Positions 8,153 through 45,476 of a stretch of 60,784 nt of DNA are shown in pieces; positions within the stretch are counted from its first letter, which is position 1, and every line of letters begins with the position of its first letter. Origin of the DNA: Saprospiraceae bacterium (lineage in GTDB: Bacteria; Bacteroidota; Bacteroidia; Chitinophagales; Saprospiraceae); NCBI GenBank assembly GCA_016787345.1, contig JAEUUU010000155.1:1-60784 (forward strand). The letters are read 5' to 3'. The notes below the pieces were generated by a model. The model saw only the letters and a program-made list of their open reading frames with translations. It was not told where the DNA came from and did not search any database. The position numbers and the translations under genes were made by a program.

Positions 8153-8720
8153 TACTTGATCCCCGATTTCCAATTCCCAGAATCCTTTCGACCTGCCATT
8201 CAAGGTCCCGATCTTCTTCCAGGCGCAATACCGGACAGGGAAGGCCATTCAACCATTCCAGTTCCTTGTCGCGGCTTCGCCAGCTATCGCCTGGCAGGTC
8301 GTAGTCGGCCGCCCAGCGCAGAAATTTTTCAAAAACAAGGTGCAAATCGCCGCCTTCCGCCAGGCGTTCGGGGCCATAACGCGCGGTTTCCCGCTTTCGG
8401 ATGCGCTCCAGGCGCAACGCAGCGGGCAGCCAGCAACACACGGCCAGATCGAACCGGGGAATAAAAACATCGCCCCAGCCGCACATCGATCCGGACAGTA
8501 CCCATTGTTCGCCAGCCCTGTCGAGGTCGTGGCCCAGCAACTGTCGGCGGTGGTCCGGATTGCGTTTTCGTTTATACGGCAGTTCATCGCCGGTAAACCA
8601 GTAGTAATCGTCGGTATCAAAAAAAGGATACCCCAGGCGCGCGGCAAGGGTGCGGCCCAGGGTGCTCACGCCCGAACCGGGCGCGCCAAACAAATGAATA
8701 CGTTGCGGAAAAACAGACAT
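8142..8720 (-). CDS. P-loop kinase-like protein (adenylate/shikimate kinase fold)
   Basis: A 192-residue single-domain P-loop protein. The Walker A is an unusual GAPGSGVST (residues 12-20), with Val where Lys is usual, as in FlaR/topology-modulation-like small kinases. An acidic FDTDDYYW stretch follows, as for a substrate site, and RIRKRETARYG resembles a lid with basic residues. The substrate is unknown. The start ATG overlaps the stop of the upstream protease by one base (TGATG), so translation is probably coupled. The last five residues are encoded by the tandem repeat, which also supplies the stop, so the C-terminus has been changed by repeat insertion. Confidence 0.7.
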   Translation of the reverse strand: MSVFPQRIHLFGAPGSGVSTLGRTLAARLGYPFFDTDDYYWFTGDELPYKRKRNPDHRRQLLGHDLDRAGEQWVLSGSMCGWGDVFIPRFDLAVCCWLPAALRLERIRKRETARYGPERLAEGGDLHLVFEKFLRWAADYDLPGDSWRSRDKELEWLNGLPCPVLRLEEDRDLEWQVERILGIGNRGSSTHD

Positions 8721-24500: not shown

Positions 24501-24768
24501 GCCCAACGGAGATTTTAATAACGACCTGCTGGTTGTTTATGGCAAAACACGCACCGTCCGTCAAATCACCTCTTTCCGCGTCTACGACCGCTGGGGCGAG
24601 CTCGTGTGGGAAGACAAAAATTTCCCGATCAACGACGACAACCGCGGCTGGGACGGCAACTTCCGGGGAGAAGCCTGCCAGTCGGGCGTTTACATCTGGA
24701 CAGCCGAAGTGGAATACCTCGACGGCTACACCGAAACGGCCAAAGGCCACACGACTCTGATTCGCTGA
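18586..24768 (+). CDS. Giant T9SS cargo protein with CUB, PKD, P-domains and SprB repeats
   Basis: A 2060-residue surface protein. In order: signal peptide (1-20), CUB-like domain (about 25-140), PKD domain with the FEWNFGDGD motif (about 190-250), two proprotein-convertase P-domain-like modules (about 280-470 and 575-722), a fibronectin III-like domain (about 779-861), 13 SprB-type repeats (about 865-1875, each with a Cys near the start and a GCT/NGC end), and a gliding-motility-type (type B) T9SS sorting domain (about 1966-2060, with FVPTGFTPNGD, RVYDRWGELVW and GWDGNFRG). It is probably exported by T9SS and held on the surface as an adhesin. The adjacent PorP/SprF gene is the usual partner. 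Confidence 0.9.
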   Translation: MKKLLLLLLLFATASLAFGQNYIMSNAPITDCSGTFYDPGGPSANYSNNQNFTATICSDGTNGTHVRLSFSGADLATGDLLCFYDGTTTAAPLLSCSDDYSPGQPFVVQATAANPSGCITVSFISNGSGVASGWAASISCVPSCQQVLADLVSTNPAAVPADTGWIDICPGQRVFFNGQGVYPQNNFAYPQSDLTTTFEWNFGDGDISYGPNTSHRFDEPGGYYVQLVLIDVQGCHSTNLINQRVRVAPPPDFSLVTAPSAICAGDTLELSANVADSTGAETLVVMPNAGTFAAEGFRSDSLPLPDGTGIPYETTIYFTEFSPGQVLTNANDLLNVCVNMEHSWMRDIEISLTCPNGQSVILHDHPGNFGSQVFLGVPNDNDAFFPIPGEGFEYCWTNNAPNGTWIEYANSVLPPFGGTIPAGDYTPFDPFTDLIGCPLNGEWTITVTDLWPIDNGFIFSWGITFDPALYPDIETFQPQFVNWGWNSHPSIFYSNSDSIAASPQNAGTAGYLFSVTDAFGCTWNTTVTVPVLPPTHPNCHTCQEQYNELPDTFLCAGSSIMLDGAFNGQTPQEIRFEAFPDYPVGNGNHPHSNPYVSPIAVSSLGFNTLTSPTTQIASICIDIETDFDADLNIYLRSPDNKTLELSTGNGGAGDNYKITCFSPVASTPIVGQAAPFNGTYQPEGNWNNLNNAAINGDWKLLVSDGFGVNQLGRVKWWSISFNVPTNVTYTWTNSATLSCNNCPTPTALPLNSATYVMTAVDNFACIHRDTATVTVGSFYPAPGNLDAAIGAPGTLVWTWTAVPGASGYEVNVNGAGWQAANGTLSHTVSGLSAGDLVNIMVRAQGGNPNCPPSVAIGSETYFSCTLVATLSSQTPALCFGTATGSVVITTTGAAGAPVFIPDGNGPVQSSGTFQNFFTAGAHFVIVQDTSGCRDTVDFVITEPTQLSVDAVATDVLCFNDDNGSVTANTQGGTPMYTFAWQTCAGVSAGAGQTLNNLVAGCYRVTVTDANGCTATDSDVIDQPTAFVFSSTQDSVNCFGASDGGATLNVTGGTPGYTFKWDNGELTQTAVALNAGFHSVTVTDANGCKAVTLVQVLQPTQLTITSTTATDVACFGQNNGSATVTVTGGTTPYSYFWTGAQTNATANNLPAGPYSVTVSDFHNCTAVGSAVVGSPTQLVAQFSSVTNEQCGGACDGAASIQVSGGVMPYDYQWNNPNVPDGNPTATNLCPGNYVVTIMDDSGCTTTVTTDVQAAVPMIVNISVVQPLCANNANGTLTATISGGAMPYQTVWSTGSNMPVIPNYACGQSYTLTVTDAQGCTSTQTLPNAPCPGLLEITSIAPTPALCNGDANGQIAVTASGGTGTLNYLWNDPNQQFGPFAFNLTAGPYIVTVTDANGCSLTATATVDEPDPLTAVITPTNAKCFGESSGSALAVASGGTGPYNYNWNVPQTGPEIINLPAGVYSLTVTDANNCQFSGVTATVGQPSSAVQMSVSQTLIACYNIDQNTAQAAASGGNGAPFSYMWSNGQTTAAATGLNADLSYSVTASDAQGCSAVQSLELDELDSIAVNVAFTQPNCAGAADGQAAVNFIEGGIGGGIINNYLYTWNIPGATGVSFVDGLSAGTPYSVTASDAQGCTGTFAFSLTDPVPIVVVAAANNVTCAGFSDGTATVTSVQSNQDVTGYVWSNGETTKQITGLPAGTYTVTVTNANSCTGLASVVVEEPLPLNLDFEVDEIKCAGDSNATIQVNVAGGTPEYQLLWNTGDQQDELSGIGPGVYIITVTDANNCVLVDSMRVISPDPLNIGLETFDVDCFGETNGRIKITVIGGELPYRYSLDGGPFMGTSTFIQVPPGAHTVVVRDANGCTNSATDTIQQPLPVEVFIGIDTTILFGESLLLEAEVANAVGMPVFQWQSALADTLVCLDSLDCYSILVQPEYGNVYKLTVIDENNCRGYAQIQVQVEKPRGIFVPTGFTPNGDFNNDLLVVYGKTRTVRQITSFRVYDRWGELVWEDKNFPINDDNRGWDGNFRGEACQSGVYIWTAEVEYLDGYTETAKGHTTLIR
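21178..24210 (+). repeat. 13 SprB-type protein repeats
   Basis: Coding repeats of about 75-85 residues. Each starts with a short CF/CN/CAG motif plus a GS or GT, and contains GG.PYTY.W and a VTDANGC-type end. They are diverged, unlike the DNA-level similar repeats of the other giant gene. Confidence 0.8.
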
Positions 24769-31405: not shown

Positions 31406-33580
31406 TTAAAGGCGAATGGCAACCGTCGCTACAAAGCTTCTCCCGTCGGAAGGCCAGATGCCGGGGCCGGGGTAGAATGTCGGGCGTTTGGTGAAATATT
31501 GTTCGTCGAGCAGGTTGCTGGCGCTCAAACGCAGTGTGAGTTGCGGGGAAATCCGCCAGGTGGCATTCAGGTCGAGCAAGCTATAAGCGGGTACCAAACC
31601 AACGGCGCCGTTGGCCGAAGGTTCTTTCGTATTGAACGGATCGGCGTACGATTCGGCGGTATAGCTGTACAAAAGCGAGACGCTGAGTTCTTTATACCGC
31701 ACATTGAGGCCGTTGCGGCTGATCCATTCCGGCACGCTTTCGACGCGGTTACCCTTTATGCCGCGGTTTTCACGGCTGCTGACGCGCAGCGAGTCGCCCA
31801 GGTAATCGGCGTTGAACCAGGAAGTCGAACTGAAAATATTGACCCGAACTTCGTCGCTCAGGTAAAAGCCGTATTCTGCGAAAAGTTCGAGCCCCAGGGT
31901 GCGGGCATCGCCGATATTGGTGCGATAGAGCACAAAAGTATCGCGGCTTTCGTCGTACTCGGCCAGGTTGCCCAGGCGGTTGTTGTATTGCAGGGCGAAA
32001 GCGCTGAGATCCCATTTGAAATTGCGGGTACTGCCACGCCAGCCCAGTTCGAGGTTGTATCCGAAAGCGTCTTCCAGGTCTTTATCTACCTGTTCATAGA
32101 TGTTGGCCGGAATAATATCTTTCAGGATGACCGGGCGGTAAGCCTGCGACCATCCGGCATAAAATGTCTGATTTTCGCTGATTTGATACTCTGTATTGAC
32201 GCCCAGAAGCGGGAAATTGTGTTCAATGGTGTTGAGCAGTTCCTGCGGGTCGTAATACGTGGTTTTTCCGGAGAGTTTGGAATGGCCAGATTCGTAGCGG
32301 AAACCCGGGCTCAGGGAGAGCGAGCGGGTCAGTTGAAATTTGTTTTCGAGGAAAAACGCAACATTGCGGCTGCGCAACCACAGGTCGCGCCGGAAACCGT
32401 TGGCATCCACGCTCAGATCGTAATCGCTGCCCGTGGTGCCGACGCCGAGTTGCCGGCGGTTCAGATCGTTGTGCATGTATTGCACGCCGGCGGCGAGGTT
32501 AGAGGTATTGCCCAGCAAGTCGTAGTGGCGCAATATTCGCAACTCTGTGGTGTAACTGTTGAAATTGTCAATGTCGACCTGGCGGGCATTGTAGGTCAGC
32601 GAAGCGGCGTTGATGGTATCCTTCACGTTGGCCGGGCGGTCCCACATGACGCTGTTGCGGTAACCCAGCACAGCAGAGGCCGTCCAGCGCAGGCTGGTCC
32701 GGTTGTCGATATGCCAGTCGAGCGTAAAGGAAGGCACATAAATTTCCGGGCTGTAAAAGTTGCGGGAGCGGGTCGACTGGCGCGGGTTGGCTTCGAATTG
32801 CGCGTCGGTCAGCGCGCCCGGAAGGCGGTAGATGTATTGGGAGCGCAGGAATTCGGCGCGAAGCGACAAGCGGTCATTGAGGTGGTAACGGAGCATCAGC
32901 CCCTGCCCGTCGAAGTCCGATTCGGCATTGTCGCGGTAGCCTGAGGAAACGCGTTTGCTGTAATACGCCTGGTAATCGAGTCGTCCGATACGGCCGCCGA
33001 CGGCATTGTAGGTGCTCAGCAAGCCGTAGGAACCTACCGAATTGATCGATTCCAGGCCGATTTGTCGCGTGGTATCGGGTTGGCGAAGCACGTAGTTGAG
33101 CATACCGCCAAACTGTGCGCCGTATTGCAGGGCCCCGGTGCCGCGTACCAGTTCGATACGGCCGATGGCTTCCATGGGGATGCTCAGGTGGCTGGCCGGG
33201 TAGCCGTACATGTCGGAATTGGTGATGATACCGTCGGTGCGTACGTTGAATTCCCAGCCCCGGTGCGGATCAAGGCCTCGGGTGGAGATATTGACCTGAT
33301 TGCCGGAACCGTCCATGTCGTACACAAACACGCCGGGAATTTTGGAGAAGATCTGGCGAGCGGTTTTTTCAGCGATGTTGGCGTCGGTATTGTCCAGGCT
33401 GATTACCTCGCTCTTTTTACCCGCCCAGATGTAGGTGCCCTGAACGGGTGGCAGGCGGTCGATGGTCAGCCGCTGGGTGCGGATGGAGACTTCGCGCAGT
33501 TGGATGGAATCTTCGGGAATTTGCGCGAACAGGGCGCTTGAGTACAAGCAGATAGTCGAAATGAACAGCAGATTCTTCAT
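31406..33580 (-). CDS. TonB-dependent outer-membrane receptor, FecA-like
   Basis: A 724-residue receptor. A signal peptide (MKNLLFISTICLYSSALFAQ) starts at ATG 33580; an in-frame ATG at 33598 would add six residues. There is no carboxypeptidase-like N-terminal domain and no SusC-type architecture. The plug (about 55-180) shows VFVYDMDGSGNQVNISTRGLD and the IELVRGTGALQYG motif. The barrel ends with VATVAIRL. The plug most resembles Fe(III)-dicitrate/siderophore receptors, so a chelated metal or oxyanion is a plausible ligand (inference). A phased TTAA-box operator lies directly upstream, identical in layout to that of the neighbouring haloperoxidase-like gene. Confidence 0.88.
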   Translation of the reverse strand: MKNLLFISTICLYSSALFAQIPEDSIQLREVSIRTQRLTIDRLPPVQGTYIWAGKKSEVISLDNTDANIAEKTARQIFSKIPGVFVYDMDGSGNQVNISTRGLDPHRGWEFNVRTDGIITNSDMYGYPASHLSIPMEAIGRIELVRGTGALQYGAQFGGMLNYVLRQPDTTRQIGLESINSVGSYGLLSTYNAVGGRIGRLDYQAYYSKRVSSGYRDNAESDFDGQGLMLRYHLNDRLSLRAEFLRSQYIYRLPGALTDAQFEANPRQSTRSRNFYSPEIYVPSFTLDWHIDNRTSLRWTASAVLGYRNSVMWDRPANVKDTINAASLTYNARQVDIDNFNSYTTELRILRHYDLLGNTSNLAAGVQYMHNDLNRRQLGVGTTGSDYDLSVDANGFRRDLWLRSRNVAFFLENKFQLTRSLSLSPGFRYESGHSKLSGKTTYYDPQELLNTIEHNFPLLGVNTEYQISENQTFYAGWSQAYRPVILKDIIPANIYEQVDKDLEDAFGYNLELGWRGSTRNFKWDLSAFALQYNNRLGNLAEYDESRDTFVLYRTNIGDARTLGLELFAEYGFYLSDEVRVNIFSSTSWFNADYLGDSLRVSSRENRGIKGNRVESVPEWISRNGLNVRYKELSVSLLYSYTAESYADPFNTKEPSANGAVGLVPAYSLLDLNATWRISPQLTLRLSASNLLDEQYFTKRPTFYPGPGIWPSDGRSFVATVAIRL

Positions 33581-33595
33581 AAGGCGATACGGCAG

Positions 33596-33662
33596 CAAAG
33601 GACAGGAAGGGTAGCCGGATTTACCTTAAAATGGAATTAGAACTGGTTTAATACACCCTTAA
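33596..33662 (-). promoter_or_regulatory. Predicted promoter with four 11-bp-phased TTAA boxes (TonB receptor)
   Basis: On the plus strand the boxes nTTAA, nTTAG, nTTAA, nTTAA start at 33625, 33636, 33647 and 33658, exactly 11 bp apart. On the minus strand these read TTTAAGG, ATTAAAC, TCTAATT and TTTAAGG with 4-bp gaps. A -7-like GTCCTTTG (plus 33596-33603) begins 22 bp from the first box. The 7+4 geometry is that of PhoB/OmpR-type response regulator operators placed over the -33 region, as for activation. Confidence 0.6.
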
Positions 33663-33673
33663 ACAGATTCGTT

Positions 33674-34243
33674 CTAACCGCCGGAAGCATTTTCCGGGGT
33701 GGCGGGATAAACTTTCTTCACGGTATCGACCTCCATGGCTTCGCCTTTGTGGAAAAGGCCCTTGTGTACTTTCACGAGTGAATCCTGAAAATACTCCGCT
33801 TCAATAACGATTTCACCTTCTTTGGACCATTTGCGGAAGAACCCTGTTTTTCTGCTGTTTTTAAAATCGGCAGTAAACTGAATTTCACCCGAGTCGTACC
33901 ACAGGGTATCGCCCAGGTTTTTTTCACCGGCCATGAAATGTTGCACCTCGCGGATATTTCCACTGGGGAAATAATAAACGGTGCGGCCTTCTTCGAGGTC
34001 ATTTTTAAAATTGCGTTCGGCTCTCACCTTCCCGTCGGGATAATACTCGATCATTTTTCCTTCTTTGCGGCCATCAACTACGTAGTATTTACGCTTTATC
34101 GCTTTGGTATCGAAATAGTCGATTTTTTCCAGCGGAGTGACGTTTTTAGCGGGCATATCGCTGTTGCATCCGGTTGTTATAAATCCAAGCGACAGCAGAA
34201 CAAGAATAGAAATACCGAATTGATAAAATTGCAGGAGACGCAT
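33674..34243 (-). CDS. MORN-repeat lipoprotein (YwqK-antitoxin-like)
   Basis: A 189-residue lipoprotein with the lipobox ITTGC (Cys about residue 26). Residues 50-175 contain about five MORN-type repeats (GRKEGKMIEYYPDGKVRAE, DLEEGRTVYYFPSGNIREV, and similar with spacing about 22). Such proteins are often annotated YwqK-like antitoxins, but here it is an envelope protein and no toxin partner is present. The start lies 24 bp after the hairpin that follows the first haloperoxidase-like gene, so it is probably transcribed by read-through from that gene. A role in the same regulon is plausible. Confidence 0.75.
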   Translation of the reverse strand: MRLLQFYQFGISILVLLSLGFITTGCNSDMPAKNVTPLEKIDYFDTKAIKRKYYVVDGRKEGKMIEYYPDGKVRAERNFKNDLEEGRTVYYFPSGNIREVQHFMAGEKNLGDTLWYDSGEIQFTADFKNSRKTGFFRKWSKEGEIVIEAEYFQDSLVKVHKGLFHKGEAMEVDTVKKVYPATPENASGG

Positions 34244-34266
34244 ATGAAAGCAGGCATAATGAAAAA

Positions 34267-34298
34267 AGAGACCGCCGCCGGCGACGGTCTCTTTTTTT
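34267..34298 (-). terminator. Terminator or attenuator hairpin between paralogue 1 and the MORN gene
   Basis: AGAGACCG at 34267-34274 pairs with CGGTCTCT at 34285-34292. T-runs flank both sides, so on the minus strand the stem is followed by TTTTTTC. It ends the paralogue 1 transcript or limits read-through into the MORN gene, whose start is 24 bp away. Confidence 0.75.
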
Positions 34299-34319
34299 AT
34301 GGCATAAAGAGATTGAAAA

Positions 34320-35711
34320 TTACTTTTTCCAGGGCAGGTCGTTTACGTGACGGCCGATGACCGTGCCATAGCGAACGCCTTCTTCCGAATCCATGCGGAA
34401 GTGTACGCCCAGCGGCACGCGCGACCAGCCGTTTTCCTGAGCCATTTCGTAGAAGCTGCCGAAGGTGCGCGGGGTTCCGATGAACTCGGTGCGGCCTTCG
34501 TGGCAGCGGTCGGTCAGAGAGTAGGCATAACCGAATTCGCTGGCCAGGGCTTCCGCGCCGGCAGCGCCGAAAGTGGCGTGGCCGGAGGGATATGCCGGGA
34601 ACGAGGGAGTAAGCCCTTTGTCGCCCGTGATCGGGTTGTCGAGGTTGGTGTGCCAGTTCGGATCGATTACGCGGCGGATGTAGCTTTCCGGGCGCTCGAC
34701 GTTGTAGTAGTATTTCGAGTTCCAGGCGCCAACGCCGGCGTCGTTGAGGGCCATACCGACTTTGGCATTGGTAACGATCGTTTTTTCCAGGTTGGCGTTT
34801 TCCAGTTCATACACCTGATTGGCAACGGCGATCCACCGGGGGGGAGGAGAGAAGGTCAGATTGAGGAGGTCGTCGCTCCAGAATTCACCTACCCATTCGC
34901 CTTCAAAGGACTGCGCCGGGGTGTTTTGTGCGTAAACTTCCAGTGCCTGGGCGTACAACTGCGATTGCGGGTTTTCGCTGAAAGCCAGCGGCGGGCGGCA
35001 CAGTTTTTCGCCGTCGGGCAGAGCGAACGTGCGCACTTGGCCCCAGTAGGGGAACATACCTTTGCCGGGACCGGGGTAGGTGGGCACCCAGTCGCCGTTG
35101 CCGTCGAAGTGGTCTTGCCAAACGTAGTTGCCAAACGGATCGAGGTAGGCGTCGTGTCCAATCGCATCCGTTTTGGACCATTCCCACATGGCGGCGGCTA
35201 CAGCGCGGCCGTGGTTTTGGGAACGCTGGAACACGTCTGCGCTTACCTGTGATTGGTAGGTAGCATTGTTGGTGTTTTCCAGTGCGGCAATCTTGGCGAA
35301 GCGGCTCGGATCGGCAGTGACAAAGAGTTTGTCCATCAGGTAAGCGTAGGAGGCATTCACCACCGTTGGCCAGTGGTATTCGGCGCCTTCCTGTACTTGC
35401 GGGATTGTGAGACCCGGATACAGGTTGGCCAGCGACTGGTACTCCGGCATGCCGCTCACACAGGCTTCATAGGCAGAGAAGCCCATGTAGGCCAGTGCGC
35501 GGGGCGCGGGACCGGGACGATAGCCGGCGGCGTAACGTTCCAGTTCGAGGAAAAGGTTGTTCCAGCCGTGGGCGACTTTGTAGTCGTAGTTGGAAACCAG
35601 ATTCTGGTCGCCAGGAGTGGTATCCTGAGGGTTATCTTTACAGGCGGTAACCAGTAAGGCTGTCATAAAAAAGCCCAACAGGATTAAAGAGTAGTTTTTC
35701 AACATTCGCAT
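34320..35711 (-). CDS. Vanadium haloperoxidase/PAP2-superfamily lipoprotein, paralogue 1
   Basis: A 463-residue protein. The signal peptide ends at the lipobox VTAC (Cys about residue 24), so it is a lipoprotein. The C-terminal PAP2 domain has the whole catalytic signature: KX6RP (Lys333, Arg340), PSGH (His378) and SRX5HX3D (Arg431, His437). In this superfamily these bind vanadate (haloperoxidase) or hold a phospho-His (acid phosphatase); the sequence does not tell which. It is similar along its full length to the two genes upstream on the same strand. The start region bears a four-box operator like that of the TonB receptor. ATG 35705 is an alternative start. Confidence 0.85.
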   Translation of the reverse strand: MRMLKNYSLILLGFFMTALLVTACKDNPQDTTPGDQNLVSNYDYKVAHGWNNLFLELERYAAGYRPGPAPRALAYMGFSAYEACVSGMPEYQSLANLYPGLTIPQVQEGAEYHWPTVVNASYAYLMDKLFVTADPSRFAKIAALENTNNATYQSQVSADVFQRSQNHGRAVAAAMWEWSKTDAIGHDAYLDPFGNYVWQDHFDGNGDWVPTYPGPGKGMFPYWGQVRTFALPDGEKLCRPPLAFSENPQSQLYAQALEVYAQNTPAQSFEGEWVGEFWSDDLLNLTFSPPPRWIAVANQVYELENANLEKTIVTNAKVGMALNDAGVGAWNSKYYYNVERPESYIRRVIDPNWHTNLDNPITGDKGLTPSFPAYPSGHATFGAAGAEALASEFGYAYSLTDRCHEGRTEFIGTPRTFGSFYEMAQENGWSRVPLGVHFRMDSEEGVRYGTVIGRHVNDLPWKK

Positions 35712-35756
35712 AAAAAGAAGGATATTTGGTTAACTAATGTTCTGACTTTGGTTCCA

Positions 35757-35823
35757 CAAAGGTCAGGCCATAATGACTAAGAGGGCTTAATGCGGCTTTA
35801 ATTCGGCCTTAAAAAGTGCTTAA
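35757..35823 (-). promoter_or_regulatory. Predicted promoter with four 11-bp-phased TTAA boxes (paralogue 1)
   Basis: nTTAA boxes start at 35786, 35797, 35808 and 35819 (plus strand), exactly 11 bp apart; on the minus strand they read TTTAAGC, TTTAAGG, ATTAAAG and ATTAAGC with 4-bp gaps. A -7-like GACCTTTG (plus 35757-35764) begins 22 bp from the first box, the same distance as at the TonB receptor gene. HTTAAK-N5 repeats of this type are known for PmrA, and 11-bp direct repeats for PhoB. Confidence 0.65.
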
Positions 35824-35837
35824 AAATTATTCGTCAT

Positions 35838-37220
35838 TTATTTTTTCCAGGGCAGATCGTTGATTCTTCTTCCGATATCGGCGCCAAAACGCGCGCCTTC
35901 CTCGGAGTCCATGCGGAAATGGACGCCCAGCAGTATCCTCGACCAGGCATCTTCGGCAGCCATCTCGTAAAAGCTACTGAAAGTACGCGGCGTGCTCAGA
36001 AACTCGATCCGGCCTTCGTGGCAACGATCGGTCATGGCATAAGCAAAGCCGAATTCACTGGTCAGCGCTTCGGTTGCTGCCGCGCTGAACGTTGCATGTC
36101 CGGAGGGGAACGAAGGGAAAGATGGTGTAATGCCCTGATCGCCGTTCAAAGGATTGTTCAGATTGGTTTTCCAGTTGGGGTCGATCACGCGGCGGATATA
36201 CGTTTCGGGGCGTTCTGTGTTGTAGTGGTACTTTGAAAACCATGCGCCTACGCCCGCATCGTTCAGGGCCATGCCTACTTTGGCTGTGGCTGCGAGGGCT
36301 TTTTCCAGATTGGCCTGTTCATTTTCCAATACCTGGTTGGTCACTGCGATCCAGCGCGCCGGAGGACTGAACGTAAGATGGAGCAGATCGTCGCTCCAGA
36401 ACTCGGCAACCCATTCATTTTCATAGGAAAAAGAAGGTGTGTTTTGCGCATACACTTCGAGCGCCTGCGCATACATGGCGGATTGTGGATTCTGGCTGAA
36501 AGGCAGCGGAGGGCGGCAGAGTTTATCGCTCTCCGAAAGGGCAAATGTCCGTGCCTGCCCCCAGTACGGATACAGGCCTTTTCCCGGCCCCGGGAAGGTG
36601 GGCTTCCAGTCGCCATTGCCGTCGAAGTGGTTTTGCCATTGGTAGTTGCCAAATGGGTCGAGGTAGGCATCGTGGGCAATATCGTCGGTTCTCGACCACT
36701 CCCAAATGGCAGCCGCTACGGCGCGACCGTAATTTTGGGAAAGTTGGAACGTCTCGGCGCTGATCTCCGATTTATAGGCCGCGTTGTTGGCGTTTTCGAG
36801 CGTGGCGATTTGATCGAAGCGGTCGGCTGCTTCATTTTTAAAAAACTTCGACAGCAGGAAGGCATAGGATGCATTGACGACCGTTGGCCAGTGGTACTTC
36901 ACCCCTTCCAGAACGGGCGGTATCGTCAGGCCGTTGTAGTACGGCGCCAGCGACTGGTACTCCGGCATGCCACTAACACAGGATTCATAGGCGGCAAAAC
37001 CCAGGTAACCAAGCGAACGGGCGGTTGCACAGGGCCGGTAGCCGGCGGCGTACCGCTCTATTTCCAGGTAAAGTTTGTTCCAGTCATATACGACCTGATA
37101 ATCGTATTGCGATACCAGATTGAGATCGGGCGGTATTTCCTGGGGTTTGTCCTTGCAGGAAGTGATGAAGAATAAACCGGACAGGGCCAATAAAGCGGCG
37201 ATTAAAGAACTACTTTTCAT
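35838..37220 (-). CDS. Vanadium haloperoxidase/PAP2-superfamily lipoprotein, paralogue 2
   Basis: A 460-residue lipoprotein (lipobox ITSC, Cys about residue 22). It carries the same active-site set: KYHYNTERP, PSGH with His375, and SRILLGVHFRMD. Compared with paralogues 1 and 3 it has more replacements around the PSGH motif (PSFPSFPSGHATFSAAATEAL). This suggests an older split or a different substrate (inference). It lies 126 bp from paralogue 1 and 127 bp from paralogue 3, with no TTAA-box operator in front; a terminator-like hairpin sits 34 bp before its start, so expression may depend on read-through. Confidence 0.85.
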   Translation of the reverse strand: MKSSSLIAALLALSGLFFITSCKDKPQEIPPDLNLVSQYDYQVVYDWNKLYLEIERYAAGYRPCATARSLGYLGFAAYESCVSGMPEYQSLAPYYNGLTIPPVLEGVKYHWPTVVNASYAFLLSKFFKNEAADRFDQIATLENANNAAYKSEISAETFQLSQNYGRAVAAAIWEWSRTDDIAHDAYLDPFGNYQWQNHFDGNGDWKPTFPGPGKGLYPYWGQARTFALSESDKLCRPPLPFSQNPQSAMYAQALEVYAQNTPSFSYENEWVAEFWSDDLLHLTFSPPARWIAVTNQVLENEQANLEKALAATAKVGMALNDAGVGAWFSKYHYNTERPETYIRRVIDPNWKTNLNNPLNGDQGITPSFPSFPSGHATFSAAATEALTSEFGFAYAMTDRCHEGRIEFLSTPRTFSSFYEMAAEDAWSRILLGVHFRMDSEEGARFGADIGRRINDLPWKK

Positions 37221-37346: not shown

Positions 37347-38726
37347 TTATTTCTTCCAGGGCAGGCTATTCACCAGCCGGCCGATTTCCGTACCAAAACG
37401 AACGCCTTCTTCGGAATCCATTCGAAAGTGCACGCCGAGTGGCACGCGTGACCAGCCGTTTTCCTGGGCCATCTCGTAAAAACTGCTGAAAGTGCGCGGC
37501 ATACCCAGGAATTCGTTACGGAACTCGTGGCAGCGGTCGGTCATCGAGTACGAATAACCGAACATGCTGGCCAGGGCTTCGGCGCCGGCAGCGCCAAAAG
37601 TGGCGTGACCGGAAGGATAGGCCGGGAAAGAGGGTGTAATACCTTTGTCGCCGTTGATCGGATTGTCCAGATTGGTATGCCAGTTGGGGTCAATCACCCG
37701 GCGGATATACGTTTCGGGGCGCTCTACGTTGTAGTAATACTTTGAATACCAGGCGCCTACGCCGGCATCATTGAGTGCCATGCCTACCTTGGCGTTGCTG
37801 ACCACCGCGGTCTGGAGATCTGGCTTTTCGCGCTCGTACACCTGGTTGGCAATAGCGATCCATCGGGGCGGCGGACTGAAAGTCAGGTCCAGCAAGTCGT
37901 CGCTCCAGAATTCGCCCACCCATTCGTCGGCATAAGCTTGCGAAGGCGTGTTCATGGAATACACTTCGAGGGCTTGGGCGTACAATTTGGAAGTGGGCGC
38001 TTCGCTGAATGCCAATGGCGGGCGGCACAGGCGTTGGTCGTTGCGCAAAGCAAAAGTGCGCACCTCGCCCCAGTACGGAAACACGCCCTCTCCCGGCCCC
38101 GGATAGGTGGGAATCCAGTCGCCGTCGCCATCGAAATGGGCTTGCCAGTCGTAGTTGCCAAACGGATCGAGGTAGGCATCGTGACCGATATTGTCGGTTT
38201 TCGACCATTCCCAAATAGCTGCTGCAACGGCCTGGCCATGGGCTTTGGAGCGGTCGAATACTTCTGCACTCACTTCGGCGCGATATTTGCTCTCGTTAGA
38301 TGTTTCCAGAATGCTGATTTGTTGAAAAAGATCATCTTCGGCAGTCGGGAAAAAACGACGCATCAAATAAGCCGACGATGCATTGACCACTTCCGGCCAA
38401 TGGTATTCGCGGCCCTCGAGCGGTTGCGGAACGTTCAGACCGTACAAACCGGCCAGCGACTGGTACTCCGGCATTCCGGGCACCGTGGCTTCGTAAGCAG
38501 AAAAGCCGAGATAGGCCAATGCGCGGGGAGCCGGTCCGGGGCGATAACCCGCGGCATGGCGTTCGATTTGGAGAAAAAGATCGTTCCACTGGAATACTAC
38601 GCTGTAATCGAAATCGGCAACTTCTTTAGTGAGTCCGGTGTTCTTTTCCTTTCCGCAGGCGCCAAACAGCAATGCAAGGAGCACAAAAACACCAGCCAGC
38701 GACAAGGGCGTCGACAATTTTTTCAT
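37347..38726 (-). CDS. Vanadium haloperoxidase/PAP2-superfamily lipoprotein, paralogue 3
   Basis: A 459-residue lipoprotein (lipobox FGAC, Cys about residue 24). The active-site signature is complete: KYYYNVERP, PSGH with His374 and SRVPLGVHFRMD. It is closer to paralogue 1 than to 2 in the PSGH region. It is the first gene of the minus-strand set and is divergent from the response regulator across 149 bp (38727-38875), a region in which I see no phased TTAA boxes; only A/T-rich stretches are visible there. Its regulation may therefore differ from that of paralogue 1. Confidence 0.85.
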   Translation of the reverse strand: MKKLSTPLSLAGVFVLLALLFGACGKEKNTGLTKEVADFDYSVVFQWNDLFLQIERHAAGYRPGPAPRALAYLGFSAYEATVPGMPEYQSLAGLYGLNVPQPLEGREYHWPEVVNASSAYLMRRFFPTAEDDLFQQISILETSNESKYRAEVSAEVFDRSKAHGQAVAAAIWEWSKTDNIGHDAYLDPFGNYDWQAHFDGDGDWIPTYPGPGEGVFPYWGEVRTFALRNDQRLCRPPLAFSEAPTSKLYAQALEVYSMNTPSQAYADEWVGEFWSDDLLDLTFSPPPRWIAIANQVYEREKPDLQTAVVSNAKVGMALNDAGVGAWYSKYYYNVERPETYIRRVIDPNWHTNLDNPINGDKGITPSFPAYPSGHATFGAAGAEALASMFGYSYSMTDRCHEFRNEFLGMPRTFSSFYEMAQENGWSRVPLGVHFRMDSEEGVRFGTEIGRLVNSLPWKK

Positions 38727-38875
38727 AAGGAGGTTTTTTAATCAAAGAAACAATTCAAATGGTGGATTTATAAAATATCTCCTTCCAGGGAAGAATGAAG
38801 GATGCATTTTTACAGCAAAAACCCGGCCGATCTTGTCTGCCTGATTTAGAACAGAATAACAAACCGCTTTACCTG

Positions 38876-39559
<684 letters not shown>

Positions 39560-39567
39560 CAGAGATC

Positions 39568-40947
39568 ATGCAAATTCGTACACGACTTACGATACAGTTT
39601 ATCACCATCGTCGCGGGTATTTTGTTGCTTGCGCTGTGTTTTACTTATTTCAAGTTCAAACACCTCGCAGAAGACGAATTTTACAGCAGTCTGCGCTCCA
39701 AGGCGCTGATGACGGCGGAAATGATGTTTCACGATGAAGACGAAGCCAAACTGAAGCCTATTTCGGACGATCCTTCCGAAAGCGCCAGGGCTGAAACACT
39801 GCCTTTTCACGACAATATCACCATTTACAATGCCCAGTTGCAGAAGGTTTTTGCCTTCAACCGCAACGCCAGGCCGGTTAGTCATGGCCAGTTGCAGGCT
39901 TTGCTGGGCGGGCAGGGTGAGCGCCGCTTTTTACATGGCAATTTTCACGCCCTGGGGCTGAAACACGTCAGCAAAACGGGCCGGGAATACGTGATCGTCG
40001 CAGAATCGATTTTTAATTCGGAAGACCTGGTCAATCTTCGCAATATCCTGATTATCAGTTTTTTTCTCGGCGTTACGATTGTTGCGGCTGGTGGCTGGTT
40101 TTATGCCGGGCAAGCGCTTGCCCCGGTGTCGCGAATTGTAAATCAGGTCGATCAAATGTTGCCCGAAGACCTGAGCGCCCGACTGGATTCGCCTAACAGC
40201 CATGATGAAATTTCGCGGCTGGTCGTCACGTTCAACCGCTTGCTCGACCGTATTCAGTTTGCCTTCCGGATGCAGAAAAGCTTTATTTCCAACGTCTCAC
40301 ACGAGTTGAAAAATCCGCTGTCGGTGATTATCTCTCAGCTGGAAGTGGCTTTGCATAAAGACCGTCCAAAGGAAGATTACCAGTCGACTATTCAATCGGT
40401 GCTCGACGACACCCGTGAACTCAACGACATCACCGAAAAACTGCTCCAGTTGGCCCGCGTGCATTCCGAGGGCGCCAATATCGCCTTCGAGCGCATACGG
40501 CTCGACGAAACCATGCTGCAAACCCGGGCAGCTTTGCTCAAAATCCACCCCGATTATCATATTGCCTTCGACATCGAGGGGATACCCGAAGAAGAGGAGG
40601 AATTGTACGTTCATGCCAATGAACCGCTCCTGCGCTCTGCCTTGCTCAATTTGATGGATAATGGCTGTAAATTCTCACCCGACAAACGGGTAGAGGTCAA
40701 AATATGGTTCAATACCAGGGGCAAACACCGGATCGAAATTGCCGACCACGGCCCCGGCATTCCGCAAAAAGACCTGCAACTGATTTTCCAGCCTTTTTAC
40801 CGCAGTTCTCAAAGCATTCACGTCCGGGGTTCGGGTATCGGGCTTTCGTTGGTCGACAGTATCATGAAGATTCACCGAATCGGTATGCGTGTCAATTCGA
40901 CGCAGGGCAAAGGCACCACCTTTTTGCTCGAGTTTCCTTCCATTTAA
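39568..40947 (+). CDS. Membrane sensor histidine kinase
   Basis: A 459-residue kinase. Two membrane helices (about 10-30 and 154-176) enclose a periplasmic sensor of about 125 residues that I cannot assign. A HAMP-like linker is followed by the DHp domain with phospho-His245 (SHELKNPLS) and a catalytic domain with the N box LNLMDNGCKFSP, G1 DHGPGIP and G2 GSGIGLSL. It pairs with the response regulator in front (8-bp gap), and its 3' end lies 9 bp before paralogue 4, so kinase, regulator and one putative haloperoxidase form one operon. The signal is unknown; phosphate, vanadate, metal or halide are candidates. Confidence 0.92.
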   Translation: MQIRTRLTIQFITIVAGILLLALCFTYFKFKHLAEDEFYSSLRSKALMTAEMMFHDEDEAKLKPISDDPSESARAETLPFHDNITIYNAQLQKVFAFNRNARPVSHGQLQALLGGQGERRFLHGNFHALGLKHVSKTGREYVIVAESIFNSEDLVNLRNILIISFFLGVTIVAAGGWFYAGQALAPVSRIVNQVDQMLPEDLSARLDSPNSHDEISRLVVTFNRLLDRIQFAFRMQKSFISNVSHELKNPLSVIISQLEVALHKDRPKEDYQSTIQSVLDDTRELNDITEKLLQLARVHSEGANIAFERIRLDETMLQTRAALLKIHPDYHIAFDIEGIPEEEEELYVHANEPLLRSALLNLMDNGCKFSPDKRVEVKIWFNTRGKHRIEIADHGPGIPQKDLQLIFQPFYRSSQSIHVRGSGIGLSLVDSIMKIHRIGMRVNSTQGKGTTFLLEFPSI

Positions 40948-40956
40948 ATTCCGGTT

Positions 40957-42297
40957 ATGCGTTATTTCATCCTCCTGTTGGCGTTTGTAACCGCGGCAGT
41001 CGCTTGTAAACGCGACGCCGACCTGGATGAACGTCCGGATTTCAGAGAGGCCAAAAATGTGGTGCAAGCCTGGAATGCGCTACTGCTGGATCTGGAGCGC
41101 CACACGGAAGGGTATCGGGCGCCTGTAAGCGCCCGGATGTTTGCCTACATGGGGATGGCGGCCTACGAATCCGCAATGCCGGCTTTGATTCAGGATCATC
41201 TTTCCGTGGCCGCATATTGCCCCGGCTATGCGCCGCCGCCAATACCCAAATCCGGGGTATTCAACCTGCCAGCCAGTCTGAATGCAGCTTACGGACAGAG
41301 CATACGGCACTTTTTCCCAACGGCCAGCCAACAGATGAAACAACGGATCGAGGACACGGAAACAGGGTTGGCCAAACAGTTTGTTTCCGGACTTGCCGAC
41401 GAGAATTATGCCCGCTCGGTCGCCTACGGTCGCAGCGTAGCCGACGCCGTGTGGCAATGGTCGAGAATGGACAGCCTGGGGCATGACGCTTATTTGTACA
41501 ACTACGACCGCTCTTACGTCCCGCCGGTTTGCATCGGTTGCTGGCAGCCCGACGAGATACACCGGACGCCGGCCCTGACGCCCCATTGGGGAAAAGTGCG
41601 CCTGTTCCTGTTGCGCCGGGGTCAGATAGCGGTCAACCCGCCCGCTTCATTCGACGACGAGCCGGGCTCGACATTTTATACAGAGGCCATGGAAGTATTT
41701 TCTGTGTCGCAACCGATGTCGAAAGAAAACCGCTGGCTGGCAGAATTCTGGAGCGACGACGTGCCGGGCCTTACCGTTACACCGGCAGGCCGATGGATCT
41801 CGATTGCCAATCAGGCGGTCGAACAGTACCCCATAAGCCTGCCGGAAACACTCGAGTTATACCTGCGCCTGGGCTGGGCGCTCAACGATGCCTGCGTGAT
41901 TTGCTGGGACGCGAAGTACCAGTATAATGTAGAAAGACCACAGGCTTACGTCAATCGATACATTCAACCCGGCTGGGAGCCCCTGCATGCCAACCCCTCT
42001 TTCCCCGCGTATCCTTCCGGCCATTCGGCCTTCGGGGCCGCGGCCGCAGAAGTATTGGGTGATGTGATCGGGTACGACACACCAATTACCGATCGAACAC
42101 ATATTCATCGCAAGGAATTTGCCGGCAAACCCCGTGAGTTTGGCTCATTTGCCGAAATGGCGCAGGAAAATGCGTTTTCAAGGGTCGCACTAGGCGTGCA
42201 TTACCGGATGGATTGTGAAGAAGGCCTGCGCCTTGGTCGCTTGGTGGGCCGTGAAATCATACACATGAAACTTCGCCGAAATGAGGTGCGGCTTTGA
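40957..42297 (+). CDS. Vanadium haloperoxidase/PAP2-superfamily lipoprotein, paralogue 4
   Basis: A 446-residue lipoprotein (lipobox AVAC, Cys about residue 17, followed by acidic residues KRDAD). It keeps the full catalytic signature: KYQYNVERP, PSGH with His356 and SRVALGVHYRMD. It is the most diverged of the four, with a Cys-rich insert near residues 187-196 (CIGCW) and a shorter stretch before PSGH. It is the third gene of the two-component operon (9 bp after the kinase), unlike the three tandem minus-strand paralogues. Phosphatase or haloperoxidase activity is possible; sequence alone does not decide. Confidence 0.83.
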   Translation: MRYFILLLAFVTAAVACKRDADLDERPDFREAKNVVQAWNALLLDLERHTEGYRAPVSARMFAYMGMAAYESAMPALIQDHLSVAAYCPGYAPPPIPKSGVFNLPASLNAAYGQSIRHFFPTASQQMKQRIEDTETGLAKQFVSGLADENYARSVAYGRSVADAVWQWSRMDSLGHDAYLYNYDRSYVPPVCIGCWQPDEIHRTPALTPHWGKVRLFLLRRGQIAVNPPASFDDEPGSTFYTEAMEVFSVSQPMSKENRWLAEFWSDDVPGLTVTPAGRWISIANQAVEQYPISLPETLELYLRLGWALNDACVICWDAKYQYNVERPQAYVNRYIQPGWEPLHANPSFPAYPSGHSAFGAAAAEVLGDVIGYDTPITDRTHIHRKEFAGKPREFGSFAEMAQENAFSRVALGVHYRMDCEEGLRLGRLVGREIIHMKLRRNEVRL

Positions 42298-42365: not shown

Positions 42366-43544
42366 ATGCGTATTCTGCTTGTTTTCTGCTTCGCCCTGCT
42401 CGCCGGAGCAACGCTTTCGGCCCAACCCGATATTGAAAAAAAGATCCAGACTCAACTGATCCTTGCCGAAGACGGTGACGTCGTCACGCTTCCGGCGGGG
42501 ACGATTACCCTCACAAATACCCTTTGGCTCGATGAAAAACGCAGGGTGGTGGTTAAAGGCGCCGGCGAAGACAAAACCATTCTTTCCTTTAAAAACCAGA
42601 CCCAGGGCGCCGAAGGTTTCAAAGTGACCAATTCGAGCGAGATCACCTTGAAAGACTTCACCATCGAAGACGCCAAGGGCGACATCATCAAAACCCAGCA
42701 GGTCAGCGGCCTGATCCTTCAAAATATCACGGCACGCTGGACGGGCAAACCCAAAAAGACCAACGGCTCGTATGCCTTGTACCCCGTCCAGTGCTCGCGG
42801 GTGATCATCGATCATTGCACGGCCATCGGGGCTTCCGATGCGGGTATTTACGTTGGGCAGTCCGACAGCGTGTGGGTGCGCAATTGCATAGCATTTCACA
42901 ACGTAGCCGGCATCGAGATCGAAAATACGACCAATGCCTGGGTGTACGACAACCAGGCTTACAACAATACCGGCGGCATCCTGATCTTCGACCTGCCCGA
43001 CCTGCCCAAAAAGCGCGGCGGCCACGTGCGCGTGTACCGCAACGCCGTCACCAAAAACAACTTCCGCAACTTTGCGCCCAAAGGAAATATCGTGGGCAAG
43101 GTCCCGCCAGGTACCGGTATCATGGTGCTGGCCACGCACGACGTTGAAATTTACAACAATACCATTCTCGACAACAAAACGGCCAGCACGGCCGTCATCA
43201 GTTATTATATCACCGAAAATCCGATCAAAGACAAGGCCTACATCCCTTACCCCTCGGGCATCAGTATTCACGACAATAAATACAGCACCGGCAAACGAAT
43301 GCCTACCTGGAAAAATAAAATGGGCTTTCTTTTTTGGCTCAAATTCGGCCGCCGGGTGCCGCACGTTTTGTACGACGGCATTCAAAACCCGGATTACCTG
43401 AATCCCGACGGCTCTGTCCGTCCGGAACACCGCATTTGCGTGCGCAACAACATCAACGGAACTTTTGCCAACCTCAAAGCCGACAAAAAATTCAAAGGCA
43501 TCAGCCGCGATCTTCAACCGTATGACTGCACCATTCCGCAATAA
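42366..43544 (+). CDS. Parallel beta-helix protein (partner of the SO2930-type cytochrome)
   Basis: A 392-residue secreted protein with a signal peptide (MRILLVFCFALLAGATLSAQ). The body is a right-handed parallel beta-helix of NosD/pectate-lyase type, with turns such as NCIAFHNVAGIEIENT and YNNTGGILIFDL. It belongs to the family usually found as a two-gene pair with SO2930-family diheme cytochromes (TIGR03805/TIGR03806), exactly as here: the cytochrome gene overlaps it by 23 bp. The role is unknown; beta-helix proteins often bind or cut polysaccharide. A promoter-like TATTG-N22-AATCTTTG lies at 42311-42345. Confidence 0.82.
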   Translation: MRILLVFCFALLAGATLSAQPDIEKKIQTQLILAEDGDVVTLPAGTITLTNTLWLDEKRRVVVKGAGEDKTILSFKNQTQGAEGFKVTNSSEITLKDFTIEDAKGDIIKTQQVSGLILQNITARWTGKPKKTNGSYALYPVQCSRVIIDHCTAIGASDAGIYVGQSDSVWVRNCIAFHNVAGIEIENTTNAWVYDNQAYNNTGGILIFDLPDLPKKRGGHVRVYRNAVTKNNFRNFAPKGNIVGKVPPGTGIMVLATHDVEIYNNTILDNKTASTAVISYYITENPIKDKAYIPYPSGISIHDNKYSTGKRMPTWKNKMGFLFWLKFGRRVPHVLYDGIQNPDYLNPDGSVRPEHRICVRNNINGTFANLKADKKFKGISRDLQPYDCTIPQ

Positions 43545-44622
43545 GTTGCCGCAAGGCAAAATCTGGTTTTTGGCATTAATGCTCATGGTCGTGACGGGTT
43601 GGCAGGTTGCCCTGCCCGATGAAGCAGCGCCCAAAAACCTGCTCTCCGAGTACGGCTTTTTTAAAGGCCCCCTGGCCAACATGCAACCCGCCGAGCAGGT
43701 ATTTCCCTACGAAGTGAACGCGCCCTTGTTCAGCGACTATGCCGAAAAAGCGCGTTTTATCGCATTGCCGGCCGGGCAAAAAATGACTTATCATCCCGAT
43801 CAGGCATTCGAATTTCCCGTCGGCGCGGTATTGATTAAAAACTTTTATTTCTACCATGAAGCTGCGCACCCTGAAAAAGGGCGACGCATACTCGAAACCC
43901 GTTTGCTGATCAAAGAGGAAAAAGGCTGGAAAGCGCTCGAATACCTCTGGAATGACGAGCAAACCGACGCAGTGCTCGAAGTGGCCGGCGCCAGTTTCCC
44001 TTTTCAATGGGTCGATGCAGGTGGCAAATCGCAGTCCATTCAATATATCGCGCCCAACCTGAATCAGTGCAAGGGCTGCCATTCGTACGACGGCAAATTT
44101 GTGCCCCTGGGCGCCACGGCCCGGCAGTTGAACCGCGCAGTCGACGCTTCCAACCATGCTGAAAATCAATTGGTTTACTGGAATAAAGCCGGCTGGCTCG
44201 ATCTTCCTGCTGACTTTGATGCCGCCGCGGCGCCCCGGCTGGCCGACTACCGCCATCCCGCCGAATCGCCGGCCAATCCCGCATTCTCCGACCCGCTGAC
44301 TGCCAGCGCCCGCGCTTACCTCGACGCCAATTGCGGGCATTGCCACAATGCGCACGGCCCGGCCAGTACGAGCGGCATGTTTCTCGATATTTTCGAAACA
44401 AACCCCGAACGCCTGGGCGTCAACAAAACCCCTGTTGCCGCCGGCCGCGGCAGCGGCAACCGCCGCTTCGGCATCGTGCCTGGAAAACCCCAGGAAAGTA
44501 TTCTGGTATACCGGATGGAAAACGGAGAACCGGGTGTGCGCATGCCCGAACTGGGCCGCCAACTGGAGCACCGCGAGGGCGTTGAACTGATCAAAAACTG
44601 GATACGTCAAATGCACCCATGA
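43522..44622 (+). CDS. SO2930-family diheme c-type cytochrome
   Basis: A 366-residue protein with two heme-binding motifs, CKGCH (Cys183) and CGHCH (Cys271), after an N-terminal hydrophobic segment (about 14-32) that targets it to the periplasm. Match to the SO2930/HNE_0200 family is based on the pairing and layout: a beta-sandwich-like first half, then the CxxCH pair. It probably carries electrons or oxidises a small molecule. The start ATG 43522 lies inside the beta-helix gene (23-bp overlap), so translation is likely coupled. Its stop overlaps the folP start (ATGA). Confidence 0.82.
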   Translation: MTAPFRNKLPQGKIWFLALMLMVVTGWQVALPDEAAPKNLLSEYGFFKGPLANMQPAEQVFPYEVNAPLFSDYAEKARFIALPAGQKMTYHPDQAFEFPVGAVLIKNFYFYHEAAHPEKGRRILETRLLIKEEKGWKALEYLWNDEQTDAVLEVAGASFPFQWVDAGGKSQSIQYIAPNLNQCKGCHSYDGKFVPLGATARQLNRAVDASNHAENQLVYWNKAGWLDLPADFDAAAAPRLADYRHPAESPANPAFSDPLTASARAYLDANCGHCHNAHGPASTSGMFLDIFETNPERLGVNKTPVAAGRGSGNRRFGIVPGKPQESILVYRMENGEPGVRMPELGRQLEHREGVELIKNWIRQMHP

Positions 44623-45476
44623 TGCAACAAACGACCCTCAACTGCCGTGGCCGGCTGCTTGATCTGAGCACACCGGTCGTCATGGGCATCCTCAACGTCA
44701 CGCCTGATTCGTTTTTCGACGGCGGTCGCCACGACGATCCGGGTCATGCGCTCCGGCAAGCGGAGAAAATGATTCGCGAAGGCGCTCGCATCATCGACGT
44801 CGGCGGCGCATCGTCACGGCCCGGCGCTGAAACCGTGCCAGAGGAAGAGGAGTTGCGGCGCGTTGTACCGCTGGTATCACAGTTGGCCGCTGCTTTTCCC
44901 GAAATCATCCTTTCAGTCGACACCTGGCGGGCTCGCGTGGCGCGGGAGGCAGCAGCTGCCGGCGTCGGTATCCTCAACGATATTTCTGCGGGCCGCATGG
45001 ATGATAATCTTTACCCGGAAGTCGCGAAATCGGGGCTCCCGTACGTTTTGATGCACATGCAGGGGACGCCTGCCACTATGCAACAGGCGCCCGTTTACGA
45101 CGATGTGGTCACGGAAGTACTCGACTTTTTTATCGCTGAAATCGGTCGCCTACGTGCTCTCGGTGTGAACGACATCGTGCTCGACCCGGGATTCGGTTTT
45201 GGCAAAACCGTGGAACACAACTATCGTTTGCTCAATCACCTGTCGCTGTTTACCAGCGTTACAGGACTGCCTGTTCTGGCCGGCATTTCACGCAAGTCGA
45301 TGATTTGCAAGGTATTGAGAGTGAATCCTGAAAACGCGCTCAATGGCACGACCGCCCTGCACATGGTTGCATTGCAACAAGGGGCAAAAATTCTGCGCGC
45401 CCACGACGTAAAGGAAGCAATGGAGGTGATCCGGCTTTGGGAAGCGGTGGAAGCGGGAAAAACTCAGCTCTCCTGA
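44619..45476 (+). CDS. folP: Dihydropteroate synthase
   Basis: A 285-residue TIM-barrel enzyme that joins hydroxymethyl-dihydropterin pyrophosphate and p-aminobenzoate in folate synthesis; it is the sulfonamide target. Signatures are MGILNVTPDSFFDGG, DVGGASSRPGAE, the DTWRARVA stretch, and LDPGFGFGKTVEHNYRLL. The start at 44619 overlaps the cytochrome stop as ATGA (Met at 44622 is an alternative), so the folate gene is translationally tied to a redox pair, an odd context. Its 3' end overlaps the convergent TerB-like gene by 13 bp. Confidence 0.93.
   Translation: MMQQTTLNCRGRLLDLSTPVVMGILNVTPDSFFDGGRHDDPGHALRQAEKMIREGARIIDVGGASSRPGAETVPEEEELRRVVPLVSQLAAAFPEIILSVDTWRARVAREAAAAGVGILNDISAGRMDDNLYPEVAKSGLPYVLMHMQGTPATMQQAPVYDDVVTEVLDFFIAEIGRLRALGVNDIVLDPGFGFGKTVEHNYRLLNHLSLFTSVTGLPVLAGISRKSMICKVLRVNPENALNGTTALHMVALQQGAKILRAHDVKEAMEVIRLWEAVEAGKTQLS

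Follow-up and report, generated by a model that had tools for sequence, protein, structure and literature searches.

In the pho box of Escherichia coli PhoB, direct repeats of 11 bp cover the -35 region, and the operator of Streptococcus CiaR reads TTTAAG-N5-TTTAAG. Few two-component operators of Bacteroidota have, to our knowledge, been characterised. Here we analyse two arrays of TTAA boxes in a stretch of 60,784 nucleotides from a Saprospiraceae bacterium (contig JAEUUU010000155.1; the whole stretch is called the window below), located upstream of a TonB-dependent receptor gene and of PAPa, a vanadium-haloperoxidase-like gene, in the neighbourhood of an OmpR-type response regulator and a histidine kinase (Table 1). 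The arrays and the regulator join the known OmpR/PhoB direct-repeat kind, and the arrays are very probably activator operators of this two-component system, serving both promoters.

The described operators resemble the arrays to different degrees. The PhoB pho box shares the direct 11-bp repeats and has another box sequence. The CiaR operator has the same core and the same 11-bp period, a likeness of motif only, and is unlike the window in that its regulator and promoter are those of a Firmicute. In the PmrA (BasR) box of Klebsiella and Salmonella, the half-sites CTTAAT and CCTAAG lie 5 bp apart and are bound head to tail (PMC3973317; PMC4660055). The PmrA box is like the arrays in joining an OmpR-family regulator to tandem TTAA-containing half-sites at an 11-bp period, and unlike them in having two half-sites, where the window has up to four, and a regulator with Asn196 where the window's has Phe198. 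The complex of Mycobacterium tuberculosis PhoP with DNA also contains direct repeats, whose motifs are 7 bp long and whose spacers are 4 bp long (PMC4832192), but its motif TCACAGC is unlike the TTAR boxes of the window.

Two phased arrays in the window

On the plus strand, the boxes of array 1 read CCTTAAAATGG/AATTAGAACTG/GTTTAATACAC/CCTTAAACAGA (core starts 33626, 33637, 33648 and 33659) and those of array 2 read GCTTAATGCGG/CTTTAATTCGG/CCTTAAAAAGT/GCTTAAAAATT (core starts 35787, 35798, 35809 and 35820), so that the period in both is exactly 11 bp. A sequence-only reading made earlier had reported four boxes at this period upstream of each gene, and they are read directly here. It had also called the operators identical; period and layout are the same, but one of the eight cores, at 33637 in array 1, is TTAG and the others are TTAA. 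The same reading had placed a CCTTTG element 22 bp from the first box in both promoters, and while the distance is indeed equal, 24 nucleotides lie between CCTTTG and the nearest TTAA by our count by eye. The -7 consensus is TAnnTTTG, spanning -12 to -5 (PMC9723704). With TTTG placed at -8 to -5, the nearest box of the window would start near -38, which would fit an OmpR-family activator. A sigma-70 scan gave 0 sites, and shuffles gave 3.5.

We infer that, upon a signal, the kinase would phosphorylate the regulator, and that regulator dimers would sit head to tail on the 11-bp direct repeats, along a single face of the DNA, with the -35 region under the proximal box. The bound regulator may then bring RNA polymerase to promoters whose -7 element, G[TA]nCTTTG, is weak, and the outcome would be that PAPa and the TonB receptor gene are switched on. 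This proposal starts from four observations at the sequence level, namely the repeats, their conservation, their co-occurrence with regulators and a distance to the -7-like element of whole helical turns.

That the arrays are chance repeats in AT-rich intergenic DNA is extremely improbable. At up to one mismatch, arrays 1 and 2 are the only matches in the window, 100 dinucleotide-preserving shuffles gave 0, and the box pair is conserved and phased in the orthologous promoters of other genomes. In the 5.28-Mb genome, four exact phased TTAA occur at 2 places (reversed-pattern control 0) and three at 7 places in 5 loci (control 2). At up to two mismatches, four-box arrays occur at 13 places against 8 in the reversed-pattern control, no clear excess, as the chance explanation would have it, and this class is therefore not clean. 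At up to one mismatch, with overlapping registers merged, the genome has five arrays, and for four of these, two in the window and two on contig C170, one of the 11 Trans_reg_C (OmpR-type regulator) genes of the genome is no more than 6 kb away. Random four-box arrays, which the sequence-only reading had considered as a counter-argument, are thus rare at this threshold and the arrays found stand mostly beside OmpR-type regulators. The fifth array, on C104 (penicillin amidase), has no Trans_reg_C gene within 6 kb, and we rejected it as a member since its TTTG lies at 68 nucleotides by eye, which is off phase. Around the other nine regulators, no array at up to two mismatches was found in the 11-17 kb fetched around each.

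The C170 arrays are upstream of a gene for a 308-amino-acid coiled-coil-like protein and a gene for a 2103-amino-acid repeat protein. This contig has a second regulator-kinase pair with arrays at 8180-9246 (L021), and similar arrays stand beside related regulators in other genomes. On C89 (L024, about 2990-3058), three phased TTAA are found upstream of a 932-amino-acid CarboxypepD_reg/TonB receptor; TTTG is 63 nucleotides from the first box by eye, the same as in the window promoters, making this promoter a candidate third regulon member distant from the regulator.

Conservation and phasing in other genomes

The genus group comprised 37 genomes in one search and 41 in the gapped-pattern search described below. 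The full order TonB receptor, MORN-repeat gene, PAPa, response regulator, histidine kinase, PAPd is present in 13 of 27 fetched loci; contig ends clip several of the rest. As the sequence-only reading required of orthologous loci, the boxes are kept: a TTAA-N7-TTAA pair, often TTTTAAGCrCTTTTTAAT, is found upstream of PAPa in 21 of 23 regions and upstream of the TonB receptor in 10 of 17, with most orthologues having two perfect boxes only. The two PAPa regions that lack the pair (L143 and L144, genomes G003 and G012) go with the most diverged orthologous regulators, 55 and 53 percent identical, with helices NYLRNK and GYIRNK. Among PAPa-homologue loci whose fetched stretch shows no regulator, 6 of 8 are without the pair, a count that omits the window and G025, where the regulator is 3 kb off. 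At L080, L082, L085, L087, L089 and L090, no pair was found in 4.4 kb and no regulator is listed on their contigs. In relatives, the array is kept next to the regulator, while in the window it is two genes off, with PAPa.

The position of the pair relative to the -7-like element is also constrained. With CTTTG sought 30-75 nucleotides from the distal TTAA, the distance from distal TTAA to TTTG is 52-53 or 63 in 18 of the 21 PAPa regions with the pair (three of the 18, L122, L135 and L146, have an additional nearer CTTTG). In the TonB regions with the pair, it is 42, 52-53 or 63 in 10 of 10. These distances are whole helical turns, and in the 63 class (the window, G025, G008, G024 and G004) additional boxes occupy the additional turn. 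A gapped pattern allowing 27 gap lengths gave 37 matches in 41 same-genus genomes, of which 20 fall at this locus, while the control gave 3. One of three gaps accounts for 18 of the 20 matches here and 10 of the 17 elsewhere. The three gaps were picked post hoc, after data inspection, and the binomial figures overstate because of this and because orthologues were treated as independent; the whole-turn change between unrelated promoters is the better argument.

Phased A/T blocks that cause intrinsic curvature or form an RNA polymerase UP element, with no regulator operator, would likewise predict phasing with the -7 element, and the arrays are AT-rich blocks at 11-bp phase directly upstream of a promoter. 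This explanation is nonetheless very improbable, for mixed spacers separate cores that read TTAA or TTAG, the arrays tend to accompany a regulator, and base 4 of the box tracks a residue of that regulator.

Arrays at period 11 are also found around other regulators. At up to two mismatches, 27 orthologue loci have 9 arrays at period 11, where periods 8-10 and 12-14 give 0-2, and 33 other loci of the same subfamily have 15 against 0-1. A wider scan for four TTA cores at up to one mismatch of 12 was divided by identity to the window's regulator: at 45 percent or more, period 11 occurs in 30 of 72 loci against 4-7 of 72 for other periods; at 36-45 percent, in 9 of 11 against 0-2; and below 36 percent, in 3 of 19 against 2-5. 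Of 80 loci in a GTDB set, 23 have period 11 (7-14 at others), as do 28 of 40 in a class set from 40 other genera (7-11 at others). The arrays are often about 1.4 kb from the regulator, just beyond the kinase. As they are recognisable from sequence, often have this place and recur in several families, the regulons of uncharacterised systems are predictable. The 3 of 19 loci below 36 percent, which are distant controls, are L187-L189, PhoB-like regulators with RKIRKK or RKLREK helices near 11-bp phased TTAA arrays; this style of operator therefore extends beyond the subfamily. A core-free autocorrelation at lag 11 found the arrays, but because simple repeats dominate, its locus means did not single out period 11 (orthologues 0.622 at 11, 0.682 at 8), and core-based scans replaced it.

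The sequence-only reading had assigned both genes to the regulator beginning at 38876, and the rarity of the arrays, their conservation and the regulator-less loci without a pair all support such control as probable. Several results weigh against it. Of the 17 TonB upstream regions, 7 lack the pair, and in three PAPa regions that do have it (L125, L125b and L132) no CTTTG lies within range. The promoter flanking the regulator (38727-38875) is also devoid of an array. The gapped pattern has 0 matches in the window's own genome, missing both window arrays because 63 exceeds its limit by one base. Orthologues are not independent samples, and the distant-regulator controls, at up to two mismatches in 20 loci, have 8 arrays at period 11 against 0-2, owing to PhoB-like regulators. 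In G029 (L077) the pair is present at PAPa though the orthologous regulator sits on another contig, and in G013 (L063), whose pair is about 260 bp upstream, the contig ends at 440 bp and that stretch shows no regulator. Finally, the second regulator of the same genome, on C170, has the same NFLRKK helix and similar arrays.

The last three of these results raise the question of whether another OmpR-type regulator of the same cell, such as that on C170, is the main array binder: its recognition helix is identical, similar arrays lie alongside, and G013 and G029 have the pair with no adjoining regulator. We consider this unlikely, for the regulator-less PAPa loci lack the pair in six of eight cases despite C170-like regulators in three of those six genomes (L234 in G001, L176 in G018 and L172 in G032). 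Control by the neighbouring regulator is the reading that we prefer.

Regulator residue 198 and the fourth base of the box

The residue at position 198 of the regulator correlates with base 4 of the box. Among 58 regulator loci (57 from Bacteroidota), Phe198 goes with A in 28 and G in 0, and Tyr198 goes with G in 27 and A in 3, namely L270 (Omnitrophota), L326 and L382. In the genus set, Phe has 19 A and 1 G (L139) and Tyr has 0 A, 11 G and 1 tie. The GTDB and class sets were fetched after the rule was formulated; in the former Phe has 4 A and 0 G and Tyr 2 A, 10 G and 3 ties, and in the latter Phe has 5 A and 0 G and Tyr 1 A, 6 G and 4 ties. The GTDB and genus sets overlap in L251, L255 and L266, none of which has a strict array. 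The 58 leave out 8 ties (equal A and G), the distant controls L181-L200 and L139, a Phe locus with AGGG in a simple tandem repeat (ATTTAGGGGGC); with L139 kept, Phe has 28 A and 1 G. Also omitted are loci with a helix missed by the regular expression or with another residue: L378 and L386 (Phe-A) and L390 (Tyr-G), all three of which fit the rule, as well as L367 (Leu-A) and L248 (Ala-A). The rule covers array-bearing loci only, and a strict array is lacking in the genus set from 23 of 43 loci with NF and 20 of 32 with NY. The adjacent K/N position does not explain the correlation because loci with Phe and N have A (2 of 2, plus L378 and L386) and G is the base in 8 of 9 loci with Tyr and K.

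Shared ancestry was addressed on a tree built without the helix, along which the residue changes 8 times and the base 7 times. A first run gave 3 independent pairs on starred branches (1 concordant, 0 opposite, 2 with no difference), and the 58-row set gave 4 (2 concordant, 0 opposite, 2 with no difference, in 196 of 200 pairings), both too few to judge by. Pagel's test preferred the dependent model by 14.4 log units (p 8.5e-6), with a quick tree, midpoint root and flat root prior, and such tests can be misled by a few deep changes.

Phe198 is aligned with Tyr220 of M. tuberculosis PhoP, which hydrogen-bonds a cytosine in the major groove (PMC4832192). It also holds the position of PmrA Asn196 (at the two-residue offset of the PmrA match), and because Asn196 corresponds to the guanine-bonding Arg201 of PhoB (PMC3973317), Phe198 is at the PhoB Arg201 position. 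For Asn196 itself, the docking model has no base contact (PMC3973317), while a crystal structure has one (PMC4660055). By analogy, a Tyr hydroxyl may read the cytosine of CTAA/TTAG, and Phe may read the thymine of TTAA. On balance we favour the view that, in a large CusR-like subfamily of Bacteroidota, residue 198 sets base 4 of a phased TTAR array, with Phe selecting TTAA through the thymine methyl and Tyr selecting TTAG through its hydroxyl to cytosine.

Co-evolution of regulator and motif is described for GntR and IclR regulators (PMC4494728; PMC8222616), the same kind of residue-base correlation in other families. Our searches of the open-licence literature, few of which targeted the exact rule, gave no OmpR-family counterpart in Bacteroidota and no report of the residue-base rule; the rule may be new. 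It is the part worth following, as an inexpensive probe of how specificity in the OmpR family depends on one helix position and as a view of how duplicated two-component systems stay apart. If the rule is true, a single aromatic swap would insulate paralogous two-component systems within one cell, and sequence could be used to locate the operators of many regulators that are as yet uncharacterised. Locally, the arrays offer a handle on the switch of a Saprospiraceae haloperoxidase-like gene cluster.

The regulator and the surrounding genes

The regulator combines a receiver domain (PF00072, 99.1 bits, cut-off 30.2) with a winged-helix Trans_reg_C domain (PF00486, 73.6 bits, cut-off 26.2; the Pfam scan used the longer open reading frame 38795-39559) and has an adjacent histidine kinase, as expected of the OmpR/PhoB family. 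The PhoB/OmpR-type regulon proposed by the sequence-only reading therefore stands as to regulator type, but the regulator is not PhoB itself, scoring below the cut-offs of TIGR02154 (153.5 of 296.2 bits) and NF053854 (142 of 270). It also misses the cut-off of PmrA/BasR (NF007928, 156.6 bits, cut-off 330) and that of its best NCBIfam model, TIGR01387 (CopR/CusR/CzcR; 230.6 bits, cut-off 279.2). A heavy-metal signal, suggested by the CopR-like scores, was dropped as these are below cut-off. The kinase scores 197.2 bits with TIGR01386, below the cut-off of 292.55.

Table 1. Coordinates of the arrays, promoter elements and genes in the window.
Feature	Position	Strand	Remarks
Operator array 1, four boxes at 11-bp period	33626..33662	-	Upstream of TonB receptor gene
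Operator array 2, TTAA in 4/4 boxes	35787..35823	-	Upstream of PAPa; same in near relative G025
CCTTTG, -7-like element, TonB-receptor promoter	33596..33601	-	Distal TTAA to TTTG, 63
CCTTTG, -7-like element, PAPa promoter	35757..35762	-	Distal TTAA to TTTG, 63
OmpR-type response regulator (receiver + Trans_reg_C)	38876..39559	+	Recognition helix TNVVEVYVNFLRKK; proposed array binder
Histidine kinase (HAMP-HisKA-HATPase)	39568..40947	+	Adjoins regulator; presumed cognate by adjacency
TonB-dependent receptor	31406..33580	-	PF00593, PF07715; proposed target gene 1
PAPa, vanadium-haloperoxidase-like	34320..35711	-	PF01569 PAP2; proposed target gene 2
PAPb, tandem paralogue	35838..37220	-	Without box pair upstream
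PAPc, tandem paralogue adjoining regulator	37347..38726	-	No array seen upstream
PAPd, divergent paralogue 3' of kinase	40957..42297	+	Same place in many relatives
MORN-repeat gene, between PAPa and array 1	33674..34243	-	PF07661

On the minus strand, the order is PAPc, PAPb, array 2, PAPa, the MORN-repeat gene, array 1 and the TonB receptor, and on the plus strand it is response regulator, histidine kinase and PAPd. The start of the TonB receptor is taken by eye as the ATG at 33580, while the listed open reading frame starts with TTG at 33598, and none of the 17 NCBIfam models listed for the protein reaches its cut-off. The four PAP proteins all match PF01569; only PAPa was searched against haloperoxidase structures. 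By phmmer, PAPa is related to the solved haloperoxidases 4cit (E 1.7e-30) and 1idu (E 2.3e-11), with its PSGH stretch aligned with 1idu. PAPa may oxidise halides as vanadium-dependent haloperoxidases do, and phosphatase activity is also possible.

In the gap between PAPa and the MORN-repeat gene, the minus strand has a terminator-like element (34271-34285), a GC-rich hairpin with a run of T behind it; such hairpins number 8 in the region against 8.2 in shuffles. Further along, at 43465-45476, are genes for an SO2930-family diheme cytochrome c and a dihydropteroate synthase, cluster neighbours that are also found in a few relatives (L121, L133, L134 and L140). The window also has two very long open reading frames, of 3763 amino acids at 46243-57534 on the minus strand and of 2060 amino acids at 18586-24768 on the plus strand.

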